NCBI RefSeq assembly: GCF_902168435.1 | Contig: NZ_LR656173.1 | Coordinates: 124,001 to 188,000 of the forward strand | DNA: 64,000 bases | Direction: 5' to 3' | Origin: Bacillus marasmi | Lineage (GTDB): Bacteria > Bacillota > Bacilli > Bacillales > Cytobacillaceae | Shown: piece after piece, positions 12,763 to 26,096 of the stretch | How the letters are laid out: each line of letters opens with the position of its first letter | Position numbering within the stretch: the stretch's first letter is position 1 | The notes under the pieces: generated by a model | Seen by the model: the letters and a program-made list of their open reading frames with translations, nothing else | What the model was told of the DNA's origin: nothing | Database searches by the model: none | Translations under genes and position numbers: made by a program

Positions 12763-12781
12763 TATTTAAGGATGGATGGTT

Positions 12782-13921
12782 ATGCAAATGGATCAAAAAT
12801 CAGTATTTGAACAAATGCCTTTCCCTCATTTTATCATTAACCAAAAATACCAAATTCTGTCTTCATCACATTCAGCCAAACATAGTTTCTCAGAAACGAC
12901 ATCATTCATTGATCTTGTGCAATCTTCCCAATGGAACATATTTGAAGAATTTTTAAACGCAAATCACCAAAATCATTATGGCGAACTAAAAATGGTAAAT
13001 AACGAATGCAATATTTTGTCATTTCAGGTTTATAAAGTGGCACAAGCAGATGGAACCTTTCATTTATTTTGCATCCCGATTGAGACTTACTCTGCTGAAG
13101 TAAGTGATTTACTGGATACAGTGGAAGGGAAAATTTCTGACCTAAATAATGAAATTGAAGTAAACAAATATATTTTTGATCAAAAGCTAGCGAAGATGAA
13201 GGATGCAGCAATTCTCTCGGAGCATTTGGCAACAATTGGGCAGTTGGCAGCTGGAATTGCCCATGAGATCCGCAATCCACTTACAACTGTAAAAGGATTT
13301 ATTCAACTTATACAGCCTTATTTAGTAGATATCGGTAAAGAAGATTATGCGATTATTGCCTTAGAGGAAATAGATCGAGCTAATGAAATCATTTATGAAT
13401 TTCTCAATTCTGCAAAGCCGAAGGTTCACAAAAAACAAATCATTCCTTTAGAAAAGCTTGTGAAGGACATCATGATGCTCTACGAAAGTGAAGCCATACT
13501 CCGGAATATAGATATCGAATGGAATTCAAAGGGTGAAACAGCATCCTTGTTTATTGATGCAAAGCAAGTGAAGCAAGTATTAGTAAATCTCATCAAAAAT
13601 GCTATTGAGGCAATTACAGAAAATCAAAGTAATGAAAAAGGAAAGATATGCATTAACACTGAAGCCATTGAAGATAAAGCTGTAATATGGATTGAGGACA
13701 ATGGAATTGGTATGAAGAAAGAAACAGTAGATAATCTTTTTGTACCATTCTATTCAACAAAAGTTGAAGGAACAGGTCTTGGTTTAACGGTTTGTAAAAA
13801 TATCATTGAGGAGCATGGTGGTAATATCATTGTCTCAAGTACTCTTGGTTTAGGTACCTCATTCCGGATAGAATTACCCATTTATAAAAAGGCAAATCAA
13901 AACAGTAATGGTGACATTTAG
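12782..13921 (+). CDS. Sporulation-type sensor histidine kinase (PAS-HisKA-HATPase)
   Basis: About 379 residues. It has no clear transmembrane segment and is probably cytosolic. The N-terminal ~110 residues form a divergent PAS-like sensor (FEQMPFPHFIINQKYQIL). A linking helix is followed by the H-box IGQLAAGIAHEIRNPLTT with the phospho-acceptor His, then the HATPase domain with N-box NLIKNAIEAI, G1 box DNGIGM and G2 box GTGLGLTV. The HEIRNPLT box is typical of Bacillus kinases that feed the Spo0F/Spo0B/Spo0A phosphorelay (KinA-E group). No response regulator is adjacent, which fits an orphan phosphorelay kinase. Three ATGs (12776, 12782, 12788) compete; 12782 has the best spacing from AAGGATGG. 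Confidence 0.8.
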   Translation: MQMDQKSVFEQMPFPHFIINQKYQILSSSHSAKHSFSETTSFIDLVQSSQWNIFEEFLNANHQNHYGELKMVNNECNILSFQVYKVAQADGTFHLFCIPIETYSAEVSDLLDTVEGKISDLNNEIEVNKYIFDQKLAKMKDAAILSEHLATIGQLAAGIAHEIRNPLTTVKGFIQLIQPYLVDIGKEDYAIIALEEIDRANEIIYEFLNSAKPKVHKKQIIPLEKLVKDIMMLYESEAILRNIDIEWNSKGETASLFIDAKQVKQVLVNLIKNAIEAITENQSNEKGKICINTEAIEDKAVIWIEDNGIGMKKETVDNLFVPFYSTKVEGTGLGLTVCKNIIEEHGGNIIVSSTLGLGTSFRIELPIYKKANQNSNGDI

Positions 13922-14011: not shown

Positions 14012-14200
14012 ATGATAAGTTCGAACATACATCAAGAGGAGTTCATATTTTCTACAACGGCAAGTGATGCTAATAGCCCGGTTGATGAATTTATTTTAGA
14101 ACTTTTTGATTACTCTCCCAATCAGTCCTGCGAAGGTACACCAAGAAAAATCATTACAAATTTCGAAGAATTGATTGATTTTTTCGAAACGATTGAATGA
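14012..14200 (+). CDS. Small protein of unknown function, 62 aa
   Basis: A short acidic protein of 62 residues with a good ribosome site (GAGGAAGG before the ATG) and a strong terminator 25 bases after its stop. Near the C-terminus it has a run of acidic and aromatic residues (FEELIDFFETIE). There is no transmembrane segment, signal peptide or motif I recognise. It lies between the sporulation-type kinase and the HesB-like selenoprotein gene, facing the latter. Its own signals suggest a real gene, but no function can be given. Confidence 0.55.
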   Translation: MISSNIHQEEFIFSTTASDANSPVDEFILELFDYSPNQSCEGTPRKIITNFEELIDFFETIE

Positions 14201-14306: not shown

Positions 14307-14597
14307 TTATAGCTTAAGCAGTTTAAAACGACTTTTGCCCAATACATCTGTTACATAATCCAATTTAGTTTGATTACAATAAATCATATCACGGGGTTGT
14401 AACAAGAAGTCTATGCCTTCTATTGTCACGATTTCATCATTGGTTATAGGCTGCTCTTCCAGAGACAGATTCAACTCTGGACCACCTCAACCAATGCCAA
14501 TACTTAAACGTACGTATAACTGTTCATCATCCATCTTCTTCCCTTTTTCGATTGCTCTTGATATTAAATCATAAGCAGGTCCGGTTATTTGGAACAT
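14307..14597 (-). CDS. HesB/IscA-like selenoprotein, in-frame TGA = Sec37
   Basis: Reading through the TGA at 14487-14489 gives 96 residues from the ATG at 14597 (after AAAGGAGAGAG) to the TAA at 14307. Residue 37 lies in the segment LSIGIGUGGPELNLSL. In the A-type iron-sulfur carrier fold (IscA/HesB) this spot is the first conserved cysteine (GGGCSG in IscA), so selenocysteine replaces a cluster ligand. The C-terminal CxC pair of IscA is absent. The later segment (DEIVTIEGIDFLLQP...LDYV) keeps the family pattern. A perfect 7-bp hairpin begins 5 bases after the TGA. HesB-like selenoproteins are a described group. Sec machinery (selA, selD) sits 10 kb away. A standard gene finder misses this gene. 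Confidence 0.85.
14458..14481 (-). promoter_or_regulatory. SECIS-like hairpin of the HesB-like selenoprotein
   Basis: Minus strand: UCCAGAG (14481-14475), 10-nt loop, CUCUGGA (14464-14458), a perfect 7-bp stem. It starts 5 nt after the Sec UGA, inside the coding sequence, as in bacterial SECIS elements read by SelB. Confidence 0.6.
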
Positions 14598-14748
14598 ATT
14601 ATTGCTCTCTCCTTTTATTGTACTTTATGCTGTTAAAATATTGAGAATAAAGAAATTTTCATGAATAAATTTAATATGTATTATAGTTAGAAGAGATTAT
14701 TTTGTATATTCATTTGCTCAATATCTATTTTTTGACAAGGAGATCAAT

Positions 14749-15912
14749 ATGAAAAAAAACGGAAAAATTCTCATGCTCTTAACTGTCGTTTTGATTGCTA
14801 CGATAGCATATGTTTATTTTGAAAAAGGCCCTAACACACTAACTGATGAAAAAAGTAAACCTGTCTCAGTTGGCACCCATGCATCAAGGACTTCTTCCAA
14901 CGTAAATGCGGATAAAATAATTGTTCAATCTGCGACAATTGGTGCAATTGGAGATATATTAATTCACGATTGGGTTTATCAAGACGCAGCAGTCGACCAA
15001 ACATACGACTTTAAACCAATGCTGACCAATGTTAAGCCATTTATGACTAAACCAGATTATTTAATTGCCAATCAGGAAACCATTCTTGGTGGAGTTGAAA
15101 TGGGTCTTTCGAGTTACCCTACCTTTAATTCACCTCAAGAAGTCGGAGATGCATTTATCGATGCCGGAGTTGATTTCGTTACAACCGCTAACAACCATAG
15201 TCTTGACAAAGGAGAACGAGGTATATTAGCTGAAATCGACTATTTTAATCGAGTTGGGTTGCCCTACGTTGGTGTGTTTAAGGATCCCCAAGACCAACAA
15301 ACCTTGCGTATTATGAATATTAATGGAATAAAAGCGGCTATTCTTTCCTATACATACGGCACTAATGGAATTCCCATTCCAAACGGAAAAGAATACTTAG
15401 TAAACTTAATTGATCAGGATAAAATAAAAGCCGAAATCAAACGAGCAAAACAACAGGCAGATATAGTCATCATGAGCATGCATTGGGGCAACGAATATCA
15501 GAGATTCCCAGCAACCCTTCAAAAGGATCTTGCTCAATTTCTTGTCAACGAAGGTGCAGACATTATTTTTGGTCACCATCCACATGTGCTTCAGCCTATG
15601 GAATGGCTAACTGATCCAGCAGGTCGGAGGGCTTTTGTTATTTATTCATTAGGGAATTTTTTATCAGGTCAAATGCATGATTATAAGGATATTGGCGGTT
15701 TAGCAACGATCGATGTCAAGAAAACCGTCAACACAACAGGAGTCAAAATTGAATTATCTAATCCATCATTTTTACCAACCTATGTATCAAATCAAAAGCT
15801 CCAGAATTATCGTGTTGTACCCCTATCTGACGCTTCAGGGTTTGGTTTGTCTGGTGCTGCAGAGAAAAACGATGAAATTATGGCTCATATGACTCAATGG
15901 TTAAATAAATAA
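14749..15912 (+). CDS. CapA-family calcineurin-like metallophosphatase, exported
   Basis: The protein has 387 residues. An N-terminal signal or anchor (ILMLLTVVLIATIAYVYF) is followed by the CapA fold. Metal-binding motifs of the metallophosphatase superfamily are visible in order: GAIGDILIHD, NQET, TTANNHSLDKG, SMHWGNEYQ and FGHHPHVLQ. The family includes CapA/PgsA of poly-gamma-glutamate synthesis and B. subtilis YwtB, but no capBC genes are nearby, so capsule synthesis should not be assumed. The start is supported by AAGGAGATCAAT before the ATG. It is transcribed away from the HesB-like selenoprotein gene, sharing a 151-bp divergent gap. Confidence 0.85.
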   Translation: MKKNGKILMLLTVVLIATIAYVYFEKGPNTLTDEKSKPVSVGTHASRTSSNVNADKIIVQSATIGAIGDILIHDWVYQDAAVDQTYDFKPMLTNVKPFMTKPDYLIANQETILGGVEMGLSSYPTFNSPQEVGDAFIDAGVDFVTTANNHSLDKGERGILAEIDYFNRVGLPYVGVFKDPQDQQTLRIMNINGIKAAILSYTYGTNGIPIPNGKEYLVNLIDQDKIKAEIKRAKQQADIVIMSMHWGNEYQRFPATLQKDLAQFLVNEGADIIFGHHPHVLQPMEWLTDPAGRRAFVIYSLGNFLSGQMHDYKDIGGLATIDVKKTVNTTGVKIELSNPSFLPTYVSNQKLQNYRVVPLSDASGFGLSGAAEKNDEIMAHMTQWLNK

Positions 15913-16092: not shown

Positions 16093-16380
16093 ATGAAAAT
16101 CCACATTAGTCACGAGGCAGCACAATGGTATAAAAATGAATTACAGCTAAAAAATGGTGATAATGTTCGTTTTTATGCACGATATGGCGGACATAGCTCA
16201 GTCCAACAAGGTTTTTCCTTAGGTCTATCCACGGATGTTCCTATGGACATCGGTGTGAAAGAAGAAATTGTAGGAATCACTTTCTTCATAGAAGATGGAG
16301 ACCTTTGGTATTTTGACGAAAAGGACTTATATATCGATATTAATCAACAATTTTCCGAGCCGGAATTCCGTATATCCTAG
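16093..16380 (+). CDS. yneR: HesB-like YneR family protein
   Basis: The protein has 95 residues from the ATG at 16093, which follows GAGGAGAGGAG; an in-frame start further upstream (16039) has no ribosome site and does not fit the family. It matches B. subtilis YneR (HesB/YadR/YfhF group): MKIHISHEAAQWYKNEL, then NGDNVRFYARYGG, then GITFFIEDGDLWYFDEKDLYID. The position after RYGG, a cysteine in IscA-type carriers, is His here, so classical cluster binding is doubtful. It lies next to yneQ and yneP as in B. subtilis. Function is unknown. A second, selenium-containing HesB-like gene lies 1.5 kb away. Confidence 0.85.
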   Translation: MKIHISHEAAQWYKNELQLKNGDNVRFYARYGGHSSVQQGFSLGLSTDVPMDIGVKEEIVGITFFIEDGDLWYFDEKDLYIDINQQFSEPEFRIS

Positions 16381-23098: not shown

Positions 23099-23141
23099 AA
23101 AAAAGGTTGCATGGTGTTATTCACCATTTGCAACCTTTTTT
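23099..23141 (-). terminator. Terminator overlapping the selA stop codon
   Basis: Minus strand: AAAAAAGGTTGCAAATGGTG pairs with CACCATGCAACCTTTTTT. The left arm is the last selA codons, so the mRNA ends right at the gene. No selB follows. Confidence 0.85.
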
Positions 23142-24526
23142 AGTGCGATTAAGATGAGTTCTAGTTCTGGTTCTGTAACGGTTCGTAAGTCGAGTTGTAT
23201 TTCTTCATTTTGAATTCGGACTATAATCGCTGGGGAATGCTCAGTTCGTAGCTTTCTTGCTAGCTGTTCAGCAGTTAACTGTGGATGGCTAATCCCTACA
23301 ACATAGGTCGGTAGCTCGACATCCGGCATCGTACCTCCACCAACTTGACTAGTACCTTCTATTATCTTCACTTGATAAGTTTCATGGATTTGACGTATAA
23401 AGCGAACACCTTTACTTTGTATTTCTTTTTGAGTAATGAGCAAATCGCGGATGGTTGGTATATTTCGTAATTCACTTCCACCCTTTACATAATCAATCAA
23501 GGTACCTTCTAATGCTGCAAGAGTCATCTTATCAACTCGTAGAACACGTGCGAGTTGATGCTTTTTTAACCTATCAATCAATGCTTTTTTACCAGCGATA
23601 ATTCCAGCCTGGGGACCACCGAGGAGCTTGTCTCCACTAAAAGAAACGATATCTGCACCTGCTCTCAGCACTTCGCCAACAACAGGTTCATCACCAATTC
23701 CGTGCTTTCGGAAGTCGTATAAAACGCCACTTCCGAGGTCTTCATAAAAAATCACCTGCTCGTGTTTTTGGGATAAATTGACTAATTCCTCTGTCTCTAC
23801 AGATTTCGTGAAACCTATCGTTTTAAAATTACTGGTGTGCACTTTTAGGAGCATCGCAGTCTGATCGGAAATAGCGTTTTCATAATCGTATAAATGAGTT
23901 TTATTGGTTGTTCCGACCTCGATTAGCTTCGCGCCACTTTCTTCCATGATTGAAGAAATGCGGAACGAACCACCGATTTCAACTAATTGACCACGCGAAA
24001 CAATCACTTCTTTTTCAAAGGCGAGCGCACGAAGAACTAAATACACCGCAGCAGCATTATTATTAACAACCATCGCTGCTTCTGCACCTGTGATTTCTTT
24101 GATTAGGGTTTCCACATGGGTATGTCTCGAGCCTCTTTCACCTTCTTGAATCTTGTATTCCAAATTAGAGTAGTTTTGTGCTGCTACGACTACATGTTCA
24201 GTGGCTCGATCACTTAATCGTGCTCTTCCAAGATTTGTATGTAAAATTGTACCTGTGGCGTTAATTACTCTTTTTAATGTGTAGCTTGTTTTTTTCTTCA
24301 CCTGCGTTTCAGTTATAGTGAAGATATCATTTAAAAAAAGGGACGTTCCTGGCTCGGCTCCCTTCCAGGTTCCGGTTAATATTTCTTCTCTAACGGAGTC
24401 TAGAGTTTGTTTTATTATTTCGGTTAAATAGCCTGTCTCCAGCTTGTGTTCGGATTCAATTTTTGAAAACCGATCATCCTTTTGCAGCTCATGAACAGGA
24501 GGTAAAGATCGCAGTAAATGTTTCAA
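23117..24526 (-). CDS. selA: L-seryl-tRNA(Sec) selenium transferase
   Basis: 469 residues from a TTG at 24526, which follows TTGGAGGGG; the extension to 24577 has no ribosome site and lies outside the family's N-terminus (KHLLRSLPPVHELQ is typical). SelA is a PLP enzyme that converts Ser-tRNA(Sec) to Sec-tRNA(Sec) with selenophosphate. Visible features are INATGTILHTNLGRA, the cofactor region with NNNAAAV, and the PLP lysine K300 in SFSGDKLLGGPQAG (K295 in E. coli). It is normal length and intact. selB usually follows selA but is absent here; palindromic repeats lie in its place. Confidence 0.97.
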   Translation of the reverse strand: MKHLLRSLPPVHELQKDDRFSKIESEHKLETGYLTEIIKQTLDSVREEILTGTWKGAEPGTSLFLNDIFTITETQVKKKTSYTLKRVINATGTILHTNLGRARLSDRATEHVVVAAQNYSNLEYKIQEGERGSRHTHVETLIKEITGAEAAMVVNNNAAAVYLVLRALAFEKEVIVSRGQLVEIGGSFRISSIMEESGAKLIEVGTTNKTHLYDYENAISDQTAMLLKVHTSNFKTIGFTKSVETEELVNLSQKHEQVIFYEDLGSGVLYDFRKHGIGDEPVVGEVLRAGADIVSFSGDKLLGGPQAGIIAGKKALIDRLKKHQLARVLRVDKMTLAALEGTLIDYVKGGSELRNIPTIRDLLITQKEIQSKGVRFIRQIHETYQVKIIEGTSQVGGGTMPDVELPTYVVGISHPQLTAEQLARKLRTEHSPAIIVRIQNEEIQLDLRTVTEPELELILIALKKVANGE

Positions 24527-24630
24527 AAAAACCCCTCCAAAAATAGATACATTAGCTATTATATCAATATTTACCACTATTAAAAATCTCGAGAAAAATT
24601 GTCACATTATGTTCTAAATTTTTTCTAATG

Positions 24631-24673: not shown

Positions 24674-24910
24674 TTATGCATTCATTTTTTCAATTAATTC
24701 ATTTGATCGTGGAAATACGCCTGTTTCCTTTTTTGAATAGATCTTTTCATCATTTACAGTAACCTCGAAAATTCCACCGGAAGCAGGAATGAGCTCCAAT
24801 TTCTCGATTTCTCCTCTGAAATGTGTAAATAAGTCTTCTGCGACACTCGCAGCTTTCGGAGCGTAGTTTCACATCATGCAAAATTCAATTATTACTGAAT
24901 ATTTCTTCAT
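24674..24910 (-). CDS. SelW/Rdx-family selenoprotein, in-frame TGA = Sec14
   Basis: 78 residues from the ATG at 24910 (after AAAGGGGAAATTCCT) to the TAA at 24674, reading through the TGA at 24869-24871. The redox motif CxxU is C11-M-M-U14, in VIIEFCMMUNYAPKA. The rest fits the Rdx thioredoxin-like fold: AEDLF, the conserved GGIFEVTVND, YSKKETGVFP and a C-terminal helix. SelW-like proteins are small thiol/selenol redox proteins of unclear substrate. A perfect 6-bp hairpin follows the TGA. Divergent from selD and just upstream of selA, it is very likely a true selenoprotein rather than a pseudogene. Confidence 0.9.
24838..24852 (-). promoter_or_regulatory. SECIS-like hairpin of the SelW-like gene
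   Basis: Minus strand: CUGCGA, loop GUG, UCGCAG. It begins 16 nt after the Sec UGA; the loop is 23-25 nt downstream, in the range of bacterial SECIS elements. The selD hairpin has the same GUG loop. Confidence 0.6.
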
Positions 24911-25043: not shown

Positions 25044-26096
25044 GTGAGTGAACAAGATAAAATACGCCTAACTTCATTTTCTACAAAAGCTGGCTGAGGC
25101 TGCAAAATTGGTCCTGAGGACCTGGCGCAAGTGTTGCGCCTTTTACCTGAGCAAGCCCCAGTCCCAGAATTATTAGTTGGGCATGAAACTAGCGACGATG
25201 CCGGCGTTTTTCAGTTAACAGATTCAATTGCACTAATTCAAACTCTTGATTATTTTACTCCCATTGTGGATGATCCATATAAATTTGGACAAATTGCCGC
25301 AGCAAATGCGTTAAGTGATGTTTATGCAATGGGCGGTGTACCAAAAACAGTCCTGAACATTGTTGGGTACCCGGTAAAAAAATTAGGTCCAGATATCTTA
25401 GCTGAAATATTACGCGGTGCTTCTGATAAAGTGACAGAAAGTGGCGCTGTCACAGTTGGGGGCCATTCAATTGATGACCAGGAACCAAAATTTGGCTTAT
25501 CTGTAACAGGCATTGTGCACCCTTCGAAAATTTGGAAAAACGTTGGTGCAAAACCTGGGAATGTATTAGTCATAACGAAGCCAATCGGTGTTGGTATTAT
25601 TACTACTGGGATAAAACGCTGTGCTGTTACTGCGGAACAAGAAGAAATTGTAACGGAAACAATGGCCATGTTAAATAAAACGGCTGCAGAAGCGCTTGAA
25701 GGACTTCATCCTTATGCGGTAACTGATGTGACCGGATTTGGATTACTTGGACATGGAAGTGAAATGGCAAGAGGAAGTAATGTCAGCTTGGAGATTCATC
25801 TATCACAGGTTCCAGTGCTCGAGGGAGCATTTGAACTCGCTAAAGATGGGGTCGTACCAGGAGGGTCAAAAGCTAACCACAAGTGGCTGTTGGATGACGT
25901 CGATTACGAGAATATACAGCAACACGAGCAAATCGTCCTATGCGATGCGATTACATCAGGTGGATTGCTGGTAGCACTAGATGAATCAGAAGCAATACAA
26001 TATATCGAAAATCTTCACAAACGCGGACATGCTGTTGCTGAAATCATTGGTGTCGTCAAAGAAAAACAAGAGAAGCTAATTTATGTAAAAAAATAA
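25044..26096 (+). CDS. selD: Selenophosphate synthetase, itself a selenoprotein (in-frame TGA = Sec18)
   Basis: 350 residues from a GTG at 25044 (after GGAGGTG), reading through the TGA at 25095-25097. SelD makes selenophosphate from selenide and ATP, the selenium donor for SelA. Sec18 lies in FSTKAGUGCKIGPEDL and replaces catalytic Cys17 of the E. coli enzyme; the essential Lys21 follows. Further landmarks are DDAGVF, ALSDVYAMGG and TDVTGFGLLGHGSEMA. A naive gene call begins at the GTG at 25131 and loses the whole active-site segment. Two hairpins lie just after the TGA. Sec-containing SelD is a known variant, which makes the enzyme depend on its own product. Confidence 0.95.
25110..25140 (+). 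promoter_or_regulatory. SECIS-like double hairpin of selD
   Basis: Two adjacent perfect stems: GGUCC-UGA-GGACC (25110-25122, starting 12 nt after the Sec codon) and GGCGCAA-GUG-UUGCGCC (25124-25140). The first has the spacing of a minimal bacterial SECIS; the second shares its GUG loop with the selW-like hairpin. Confidence 0.6.

Follow-up and report, generated by a model that had tools for sequence, protein, structure and literature searches.

A 64,000-nucleotide stretch of the Bacillus marasmi genome (contig NZ_LR656173.1, positions 124,001 to 188,000; hereafter the window) carries on its minus strand a 96-codon reading frame that starts at an ATG (14597-14595), ends at a true TAA stop (14309-14307) and is broken by an in-frame TGA. 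Standard gene calling ends the gene at this UGA, leaving an annotation gap. Comparison of the sequence with its homologues indicates that the frame is almost certainly a genuine selenoprotein gene in which UGA37 specifies selenocysteine (Sec, or U). A sequence-only reading of this DNA, which stated no strand, had described the broken frame and a good ribosome site, and both are present on the minus strand (the site being AGGAG at 14613-14609). The features of the locus are given below, where SECIS denotes the selenocysteine insertion sequence.

14310..14597, minus strand: selenoprotein coding frame, 96 residues, Sec at residue 37 (from the sequence and its homologues)
14487..14489, minus strand: in-frame TGA, codon 37, read as selenocysteine (TGA in 156 of 156 distinct homologues)
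14609..14613, minus strand: Shine-Dalgarno-like AGGAG (read from the sequence)
14450..14469, minus strand: SECIS hairpin (covariation, covariance model, low synonymous change)
14458..14481, minus strand: 7-bp hairpin of the sequence-only reading, which overlaps the SECIS and competes with it in naked RNA (fold energies)

The 96-residue read-through product (MFQITGPAYDL...RLSIGIG-Sec-GGPELNLSLEE...KLLKL) matches no Pfam family at an E value of 1, and its score against TIGR00049 is 33.8 bits, under the cut-off of 58.8. Its relatives are easier to place, with 88 of the 90 in alignment A1 matching Fe-S_biosyn at E 0.01. Of 193 genomes in the same family, 147 contain a homologue (at 1e-6). Among the matches listed for the family, with second matches of several genomes left out, 163 rows were kept; three were repeat fetches of the same places, giving 160 loci and 156 distinct proteins. 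Left out of the counts were two fragments starting 3' of the Sec codon (L065, L071), four weak matches that have no TGA and do not belong to this subfamily (L066, L067, L068, L072), a HesB-like frame with a TGA and a C-terminal CC (L069) and two duplicates (L023 and the window copy). Alignment A1 holds 90 of 92 picked rows (without L141 and L151), A2 holds 62 of those 92, and A3 holds 58 of the 62 in A2 (without L010, L026, L042 and L151). The genome's own paralogues, L011 and L012, gave no tblastn match at 1e-2. A few rows are short or oddly ended, and L029 was read only to its additional TAA. This L029 copy, a subfamily A gene of genome G043 (where selA matches twice), has that additional in-frame TAA 3' of the Sec codon and is broken or misread.

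The internal codon is TGA in all 156 distinct proteins, which come mostly from ordinary soil-type Bacillaceae, and never Cys; the genuine stops of the 163 rows are mixed (TAA in 117, TAG in 23, TGA in 23). The sequence-only reading had asked whether all homologues stop at this TGA and whether conservation is lost beyond it. The frame continues past the TGA under equal constraint on either side, the ratio of nonsynonymous to synonymous change (dN/dS) being 0.141 before the Sec codon versus 0.144 after the SECIS (879 pairs). More widely, the 16 best rows of 98 matching genomes in a class sample (398 sampled) each carry one TGA, 12 of the 16 from outside the family, and the 14 best-scoring rows of a phylum sample carry it as well (20 of 299 genomes matching). 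Phage records gave no match. A search for homologues with Cys at position 37, also suggested by that reading, found none among the 156 close homologues; Cys stands there only in the distant rows L195, L196 and L067, which group together in the tree (100/90), their placement being unsure. The top stop-free rows of the class sample, in G273 (52.7 bits) and G334 (47.7 bits), were set aside as distant relatives with MRxSC replacing MGIGU.

We labelled two subfamilies by motif, A (118 distinct proteins, the window's type) and B (38 distinct, with Ser at Sec+12). B forms one side of a branch in a 63-row tree (99/94). A falls nearly on one side of the same tree, with two out-of-family relatives within it and many forks unresolved.

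Folding of relatives and codon tables define a SECIS for the family: a GGA loop tops an upper stem of CUCU/AGAG, which a bulged U usually separates from a lower stem. In the window the lower stem pairs 14469-14466 with 14453-14450, the outermost pair being mismatched, U 14465 is bulged, the upper stem pairs 14464-14461 with 14457-14454, and the apical GGA occupies 14460-14458, the loop beginning 26 nucleotides 3' of the UGA. By the criterion used for bacterial selenoproteins, the hairpin lies downstream, inside the coding region, with a G in its apical loop. The upper stem is whole in 155 of 156 proteins' genes and the lower stem in 146, three of four pairs remaining in the other 10, the window copy included; the lower stem was scored in two registers, one bulged and one not, of which the better was counted, and 500 reshufflings of the 3' arms left it whole in a mean of 57 and a maximum of 75. 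In an alignment of 62 relatives, 98.2% of cells pair, compared with 40.7-70.8% when the SECIS is shifted along the alignment, and changes on both sides occur in three pairs. Synonymous change is low across the element, and its loop Leu codon is CTG in 156 of 156; in the rest of these genes CTG accounts for 201 of 1562 Leu codons. Within the window, only one of 15 TGA sites on both strands (each preceded by 30 or more codons counted from a start and followed by about 50 open codons) has the conserved core, and that one is TGA37; the CTCTGGARGAG core occurs once in the window, where 0.02 occurrences are expected. When the window was left out of its construction, a covariance model still recovered the window copy (67.7 bits, E 9.4e-16). 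It also detected the genome's two HesB-like paralogues (31.3 and 19.3 bits) and class relatives; these matches in part reflect protein homology and are not independent evidence. An Rfam scan of the window and the locus matched no SECIS family.

The sequence-only reading had taken a different structure for the SECIS, a 7-bp hairpin five nucleotides 3' of the TGA. That hairpin exists in the window (14481-14475 with 14464-14458), and we reject it as the SECIS: all seven pairs are present in only one of the 156, and the helix pairs at 63.4% of cells, which does not exceed shuffles, and shows neither covariation nor any double change.

The same reading had named the absence of selB and a Sec tRNA as refuting its claim. 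The 4.64-Mb assembly contains one tRNA-Sec above the Rfam cut-off (62.2 versus 47 bits; ARAGORN anticodon tca) and selB (361.5 bits, cut-off 242.25), and selA and selD lie in the window itself:

23117..24577, minus strand: selA, L-seryl-tRNA(Sec) selenium transferase (TIGR00474, 562 bits, cut-off 267.9)
25044..26096, plus strand: selD, with an in-frame TGA as Sec18 (25095-25097, KAG-Sec-GCK; TIGR00476, 398.7 bits, cut-off 125)

The frame continues past the TGA, its downstream part is constrained and the machinery is complete, so the three refutations suggested by that reading fail. The ribosome would read UGA37 as Sec with the aid of SelB, tRNA-Sec and the SECIS hairpin. Of the 193 family genomes, 172 have a selA match above the cut-off and 21 do not. 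Subfamily A is present in 118 of the selA-bearing and none of the selA-less genomes, and subfamily B in 37 and three of them, respectively, all counts being uncorrected for kinship. At the level of gene content, this comparison shows that the gene depends on the Sec machinery. Two of the three selA-less B genomes, G171 and G175, also have no selB, and their B protein (set L057-L059) is identical to that of G047 and to that of the Cytobacillus plasmid pBO1 (L193, 6001-6273), so that hosts unable to decode a selenoprotein gene seem to receive one by way of the plasmid; the third, G179, is a draft, 81% complete, with a selB match. These two genomes, and four plasmid records with a copy in which, among the entries listed in an incomplete table, no gene is annotated beneath the match, would fit a true stop in a pseudogene or truncated peptide, or a sequencing error. 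With the same TGA in 156 of 156, equal constraint on both sides, a covarying SECIS and the full machinery, we regard that explanation as vanishingly improbable, and rejected a pseudogene or sequencing error on the constancy of the TGA and the equal dN/dS before and after it.

Two observations concern other in-frame TGA codons near these genes. Standard open reading frame (ORF) calling starts selD too late, at 25131, because of its in-frame TGA. Between selA and selD lies a second hidden selenoprotein gene, a 78-codon frame of the SelT/SelW/SelH type (24674-24910, minus strand; TIGR02174, 65.9 bits, cut-off 34.2), in which TGA is codon 14 (24871-24869) within a CMMU (CxxU) motif.

The sequence-only reading had proposed a hidden selenoprotein of the HesB/IscA fold with Sec standing in for IscA's first cluster ligand and no C-terminal CxC pair, and on each point our analysis agrees. 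The predicted fold is the IscA/HesB beta fold, ending at the last strand without a CxC tail, and a beta hairpin (GIGUGGP) is predicted to bear Sec at its tip. In this fold and in the first-ligand position the protein resembles the A-type carriers IscA, SufA and ErpA, which have three conserved Cys, two of them in the C-terminal CxC, whereas the window's family has Sec for Cys, no CxC and usually no Cys at all. There is no cysteine in 142 of the 156 proteins and one in the other 14, the window protein having a single unconserved Cys74. The further suggestion of the sequence-only reading, that the protein may be a selenol redox or metal-binding device and not an ordinary Fe-S carrier, would be consistent with this scarcity of cysteine. 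Because 142 of 156 are cysteine-free, Sec is, by sequence, the only conserved chalcogen of the family, which has lost the cysteines that define the established job of its fold. Pro40 is conserved in 156 of 156.

A cluster or metal could still be bound by a dimer or tetramer in which each chain contributes its Sec alongside other residues; the IscA fold, the position of Sec at the first IscA ligand and the conserved Tyr73, Phe74, Asp80 and often His67 provide some grounds for this. We consider such a binder improbable, because both C-terminal IscA ligands are missing throughout the family and the closest structural match by identity points elsewhere. This match is DsrR of Allochromatium vinosum (2k4z), an IscA-fold protein with 28% identity over 91 aligned residues and, to our knowledge, not a selenoprotein. 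The title of Grimm 2010 describes DsrR as not binding Fe-S (iron-sulfur) clusters, and the available portion of PMC11406059 places it in a sulfur-oxidation gene cluster. DsrR belongs to a different phylum and is described as regulatory.

HesB-like selenoproteins are an established family, to which this gene adds another form of a known kind. The sections available of two surveys list 11 of them in 2006 (PMC1794560) and 90 in 86 organisms in 2016, out of more than 5200 organisms (PMC5029168), and those of a 2026 account give a UxGP motif and list no assigned role (PMC13188914). The motif is common to TIGR01911 (HesB_rel_seleno), NF038090 (IscA_HesB_Se) and the window protein, where it reads UGGP, and the SECIS model detects the same core in class relatives and in the genome's two paralogues. 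With C scored for U, the window protein lies under the cut-offs of both families (20.6 versus 66.35 for TIGR01911, 29.8 versus 85 for NF038090). The genome's paralogues with C-terminal Cys also fall under the TIGR01911 cut-off (43.9 and 38.7 versus 66.35), so missing a cut-off alone does not prove distinctness. The real difference is the absence of the C-terminal Cys, which most other TGA-bearing class members keep. In a literature search that excluded supplements, we found no report of a HesB-like selenoprotein without C-terminal Cys or in sulfane-sulfur operons, nor of the lone-Sec form, its frequency in the family or its division into stand-alone and operon types. Two more HesB-like frames with in-frame TGA lie about 2 kb apart on contig C23 of the same genome (L013, 8026-~8330 and 10099-~10420, minus strand), each with a C-terminal Cys and both detected by the SECIS model.

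The two subfamilies differ in their surroundings. Neighbour clusters, whose representatives were named by Pfam (one small cluster is presumably OsmC), include rhodanese/TusA/CoA-disulfide reductase, DsrE or TauE in reach of 24 of 38 B loci and 1 of 118 A loci. When all seven sulfur or thiol clusters are counted, 36 of 38 B loci have at least one in reach. On pBO1, genes for a metal-sensitive regulator, DsrE, rhodanese, TusA, glutaredoxin, metallo-beta-lactamase (MBL), TauE and peroxiredoxin lie upstream of the B gene and a rhodanese gene downstream. Subfamily A is a lone, stand-alone gene: 93 of 118 loci have a divergent CapA-like gene no more than 500 nucleotides away, PlsY is in reach at 87 and a YneR-like gene at 57. 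In the window, the first of these is as follows.

14749..15912, plus strand: divergent gene for a CapA-like protein (Pfam PGA_cap, 250.7 bits)

By their neighbours, the window gene and subfamily A are not members of the sulfane-sulfur (yrk/cst) cluster. The neighbours of B are of the kinds found in that cluster, which in the accessible part of its description (PMC9918477) has no HesB-like member, and A occurs in none; the comparable yrk cluster of B. licheniformis responds to sulfane sulfur, according to the same part of that source.

If the identity is granted, we favour, at rather less than even odds, a protein that is not a cluster carrier and instead uses a one-site selenol to attack sulfane sulfur (persulfide or polysulfide). 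TusA, DsrE and rhodanese are single-cysteine sulfur carriers, and we prefer this mechanism because of that analogy together with the context of B. The selenol would carry or hand on sulfane sulfur as Se-S, as the single cysteines of those proteins do, and an external thiol or partner protein would act as resolver; a lone selenol probably has its partner outside the protein. Subfamily B would work inside sulfane-sulfur operons and A, the window's type, would stand alone on a transcript of its own, a role that for A is borrowed from its sister. Taken as a whole, this explanation has a probability of roughly 0.45 in our estimation. A more sweeping version is tentative: the family may be a selenium-only branch of the IscA fold, with no cysteines and no Fe-S job, whose members are one-atom selenol carriers of sulfane sulfur (protein-Se-S) forming a genetically encoded selenopersulfide relay, one subfamily in persulfide operons and the other standing alone in most selA-bearing genomes of the family. 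Selenium in enzymes usually sits beside a resolving cysteine or a metal. Sec acting alone on sulfane sulfur would, if true, put selenium to a use of a new kind, and the division into A and B offers a direct genetic handle on function.

The neighbours of some B loci, which include thioredoxin-like, glutaredoxin and peroxiredoxin genes, would also suit a selenol peroxidase or reductase, which would reduce peroxides or mixed disulfides at its Sec, with an external thiol such as bacillithiol or thioredoxin restoring the selenol; most selenoproteins of established role are redox enzymes, as stated in the available sections of PMC13188914. Such an enzyme seems unlikely here, given the lack of a resolving Cys and of a UxxC motif, a predicted fold that is IscA-like and not thioredoxin-like, and B neighbours that suggest sulfur transfer at least as much as peroxides.

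Several points weigh against the proposed SECIS-dependent, sulfane-sulfur selenoprotein. Naked window RNA favours the 7-bp hairpin (-13.7 versus -6.1 kcal/mol for the SECIS). Without the first 15 nucleotides, which a ribosome on the UGA might mask, the SECIS forms in the window copy, and its central pair probability exceeds 0.5 in 143 of 156. The window copy is without one of the four lower-stem pairs, and the choice between two registers was made after inspecting the sequences, the shuffles being given the same choice. Related genomes are non-independent data, so Fisher's p should not be read literally; G171 and G175 hold their plasmid-type B copy with neither selA nor selB. A B copy on a Mesobacillus foraminis plasmid adjoins copper genes and nitrite reductase, not rhodanese, and the window's subfamily A has no sulfur neighbours, its function being inferred from sister B.

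The frequent YneR-like neighbour of subfamily A raises another possibility. The sequence-only reading had placed the gene near a yneR homologue, and there is a HesB-like protein at 16093-16380, for which the name yneR rests on that reading and on R30 and Y31; its score against Pfam Fe-S_biosyn is 22.8 bits (cut-off 26.3), and no solved structure matched it in a sequence search. Both residues are reported at these positions for YneR/PdhI, which in Bacillus subtilis inhibits pyruvate dehydrogenase E1 (available part of PMC10090944). YneR/PdhI (9a4q) has an IscA-like fold, as the window protein is predicted to have, and no Sec. By analogy, the selenoprotein could be a regulator whose hairpin tip docks in the active-site channel of an enzyme, Sec making the contact redox-sensitive or covalent. 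This too is rather a long shot: the correspondence of the tips was judged by eye, no partner was identified, syntenic neighbours need not interact, and the two window proteins do not detectably align by sequence, on which ground we also rejected a tandem kinship of their genes.

The sequence-only reading had also set the gene beside a sporulation-type kinase. A histidine kinase gene (12776-13921) is nearby and does not adjoin it, an ORF at 14012-14200 lying between; the kinase scores 174.8 bits against NCBIfam KinD (cut-off 775), and we found no functional link between it and the gene. A promoter and terminator scan returned three hits, as against 3.2 by chance, and no terminators. A TATAATA-like stretch is common in the 140 nucleotides 5' of many A genes (in the window at about 14680-14690, minus strand), possibly a promoter with a long leader, and ATAATATA is common to 53 of 118 A upstream regions, within the gap to the divergent CapA-like gene. 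The ORF at 14012-14200 (plus strand, 62 residues, no Pfam match) is convergent to the selenoprotein gene, and it has relatives at 42 of the 118 A loci.
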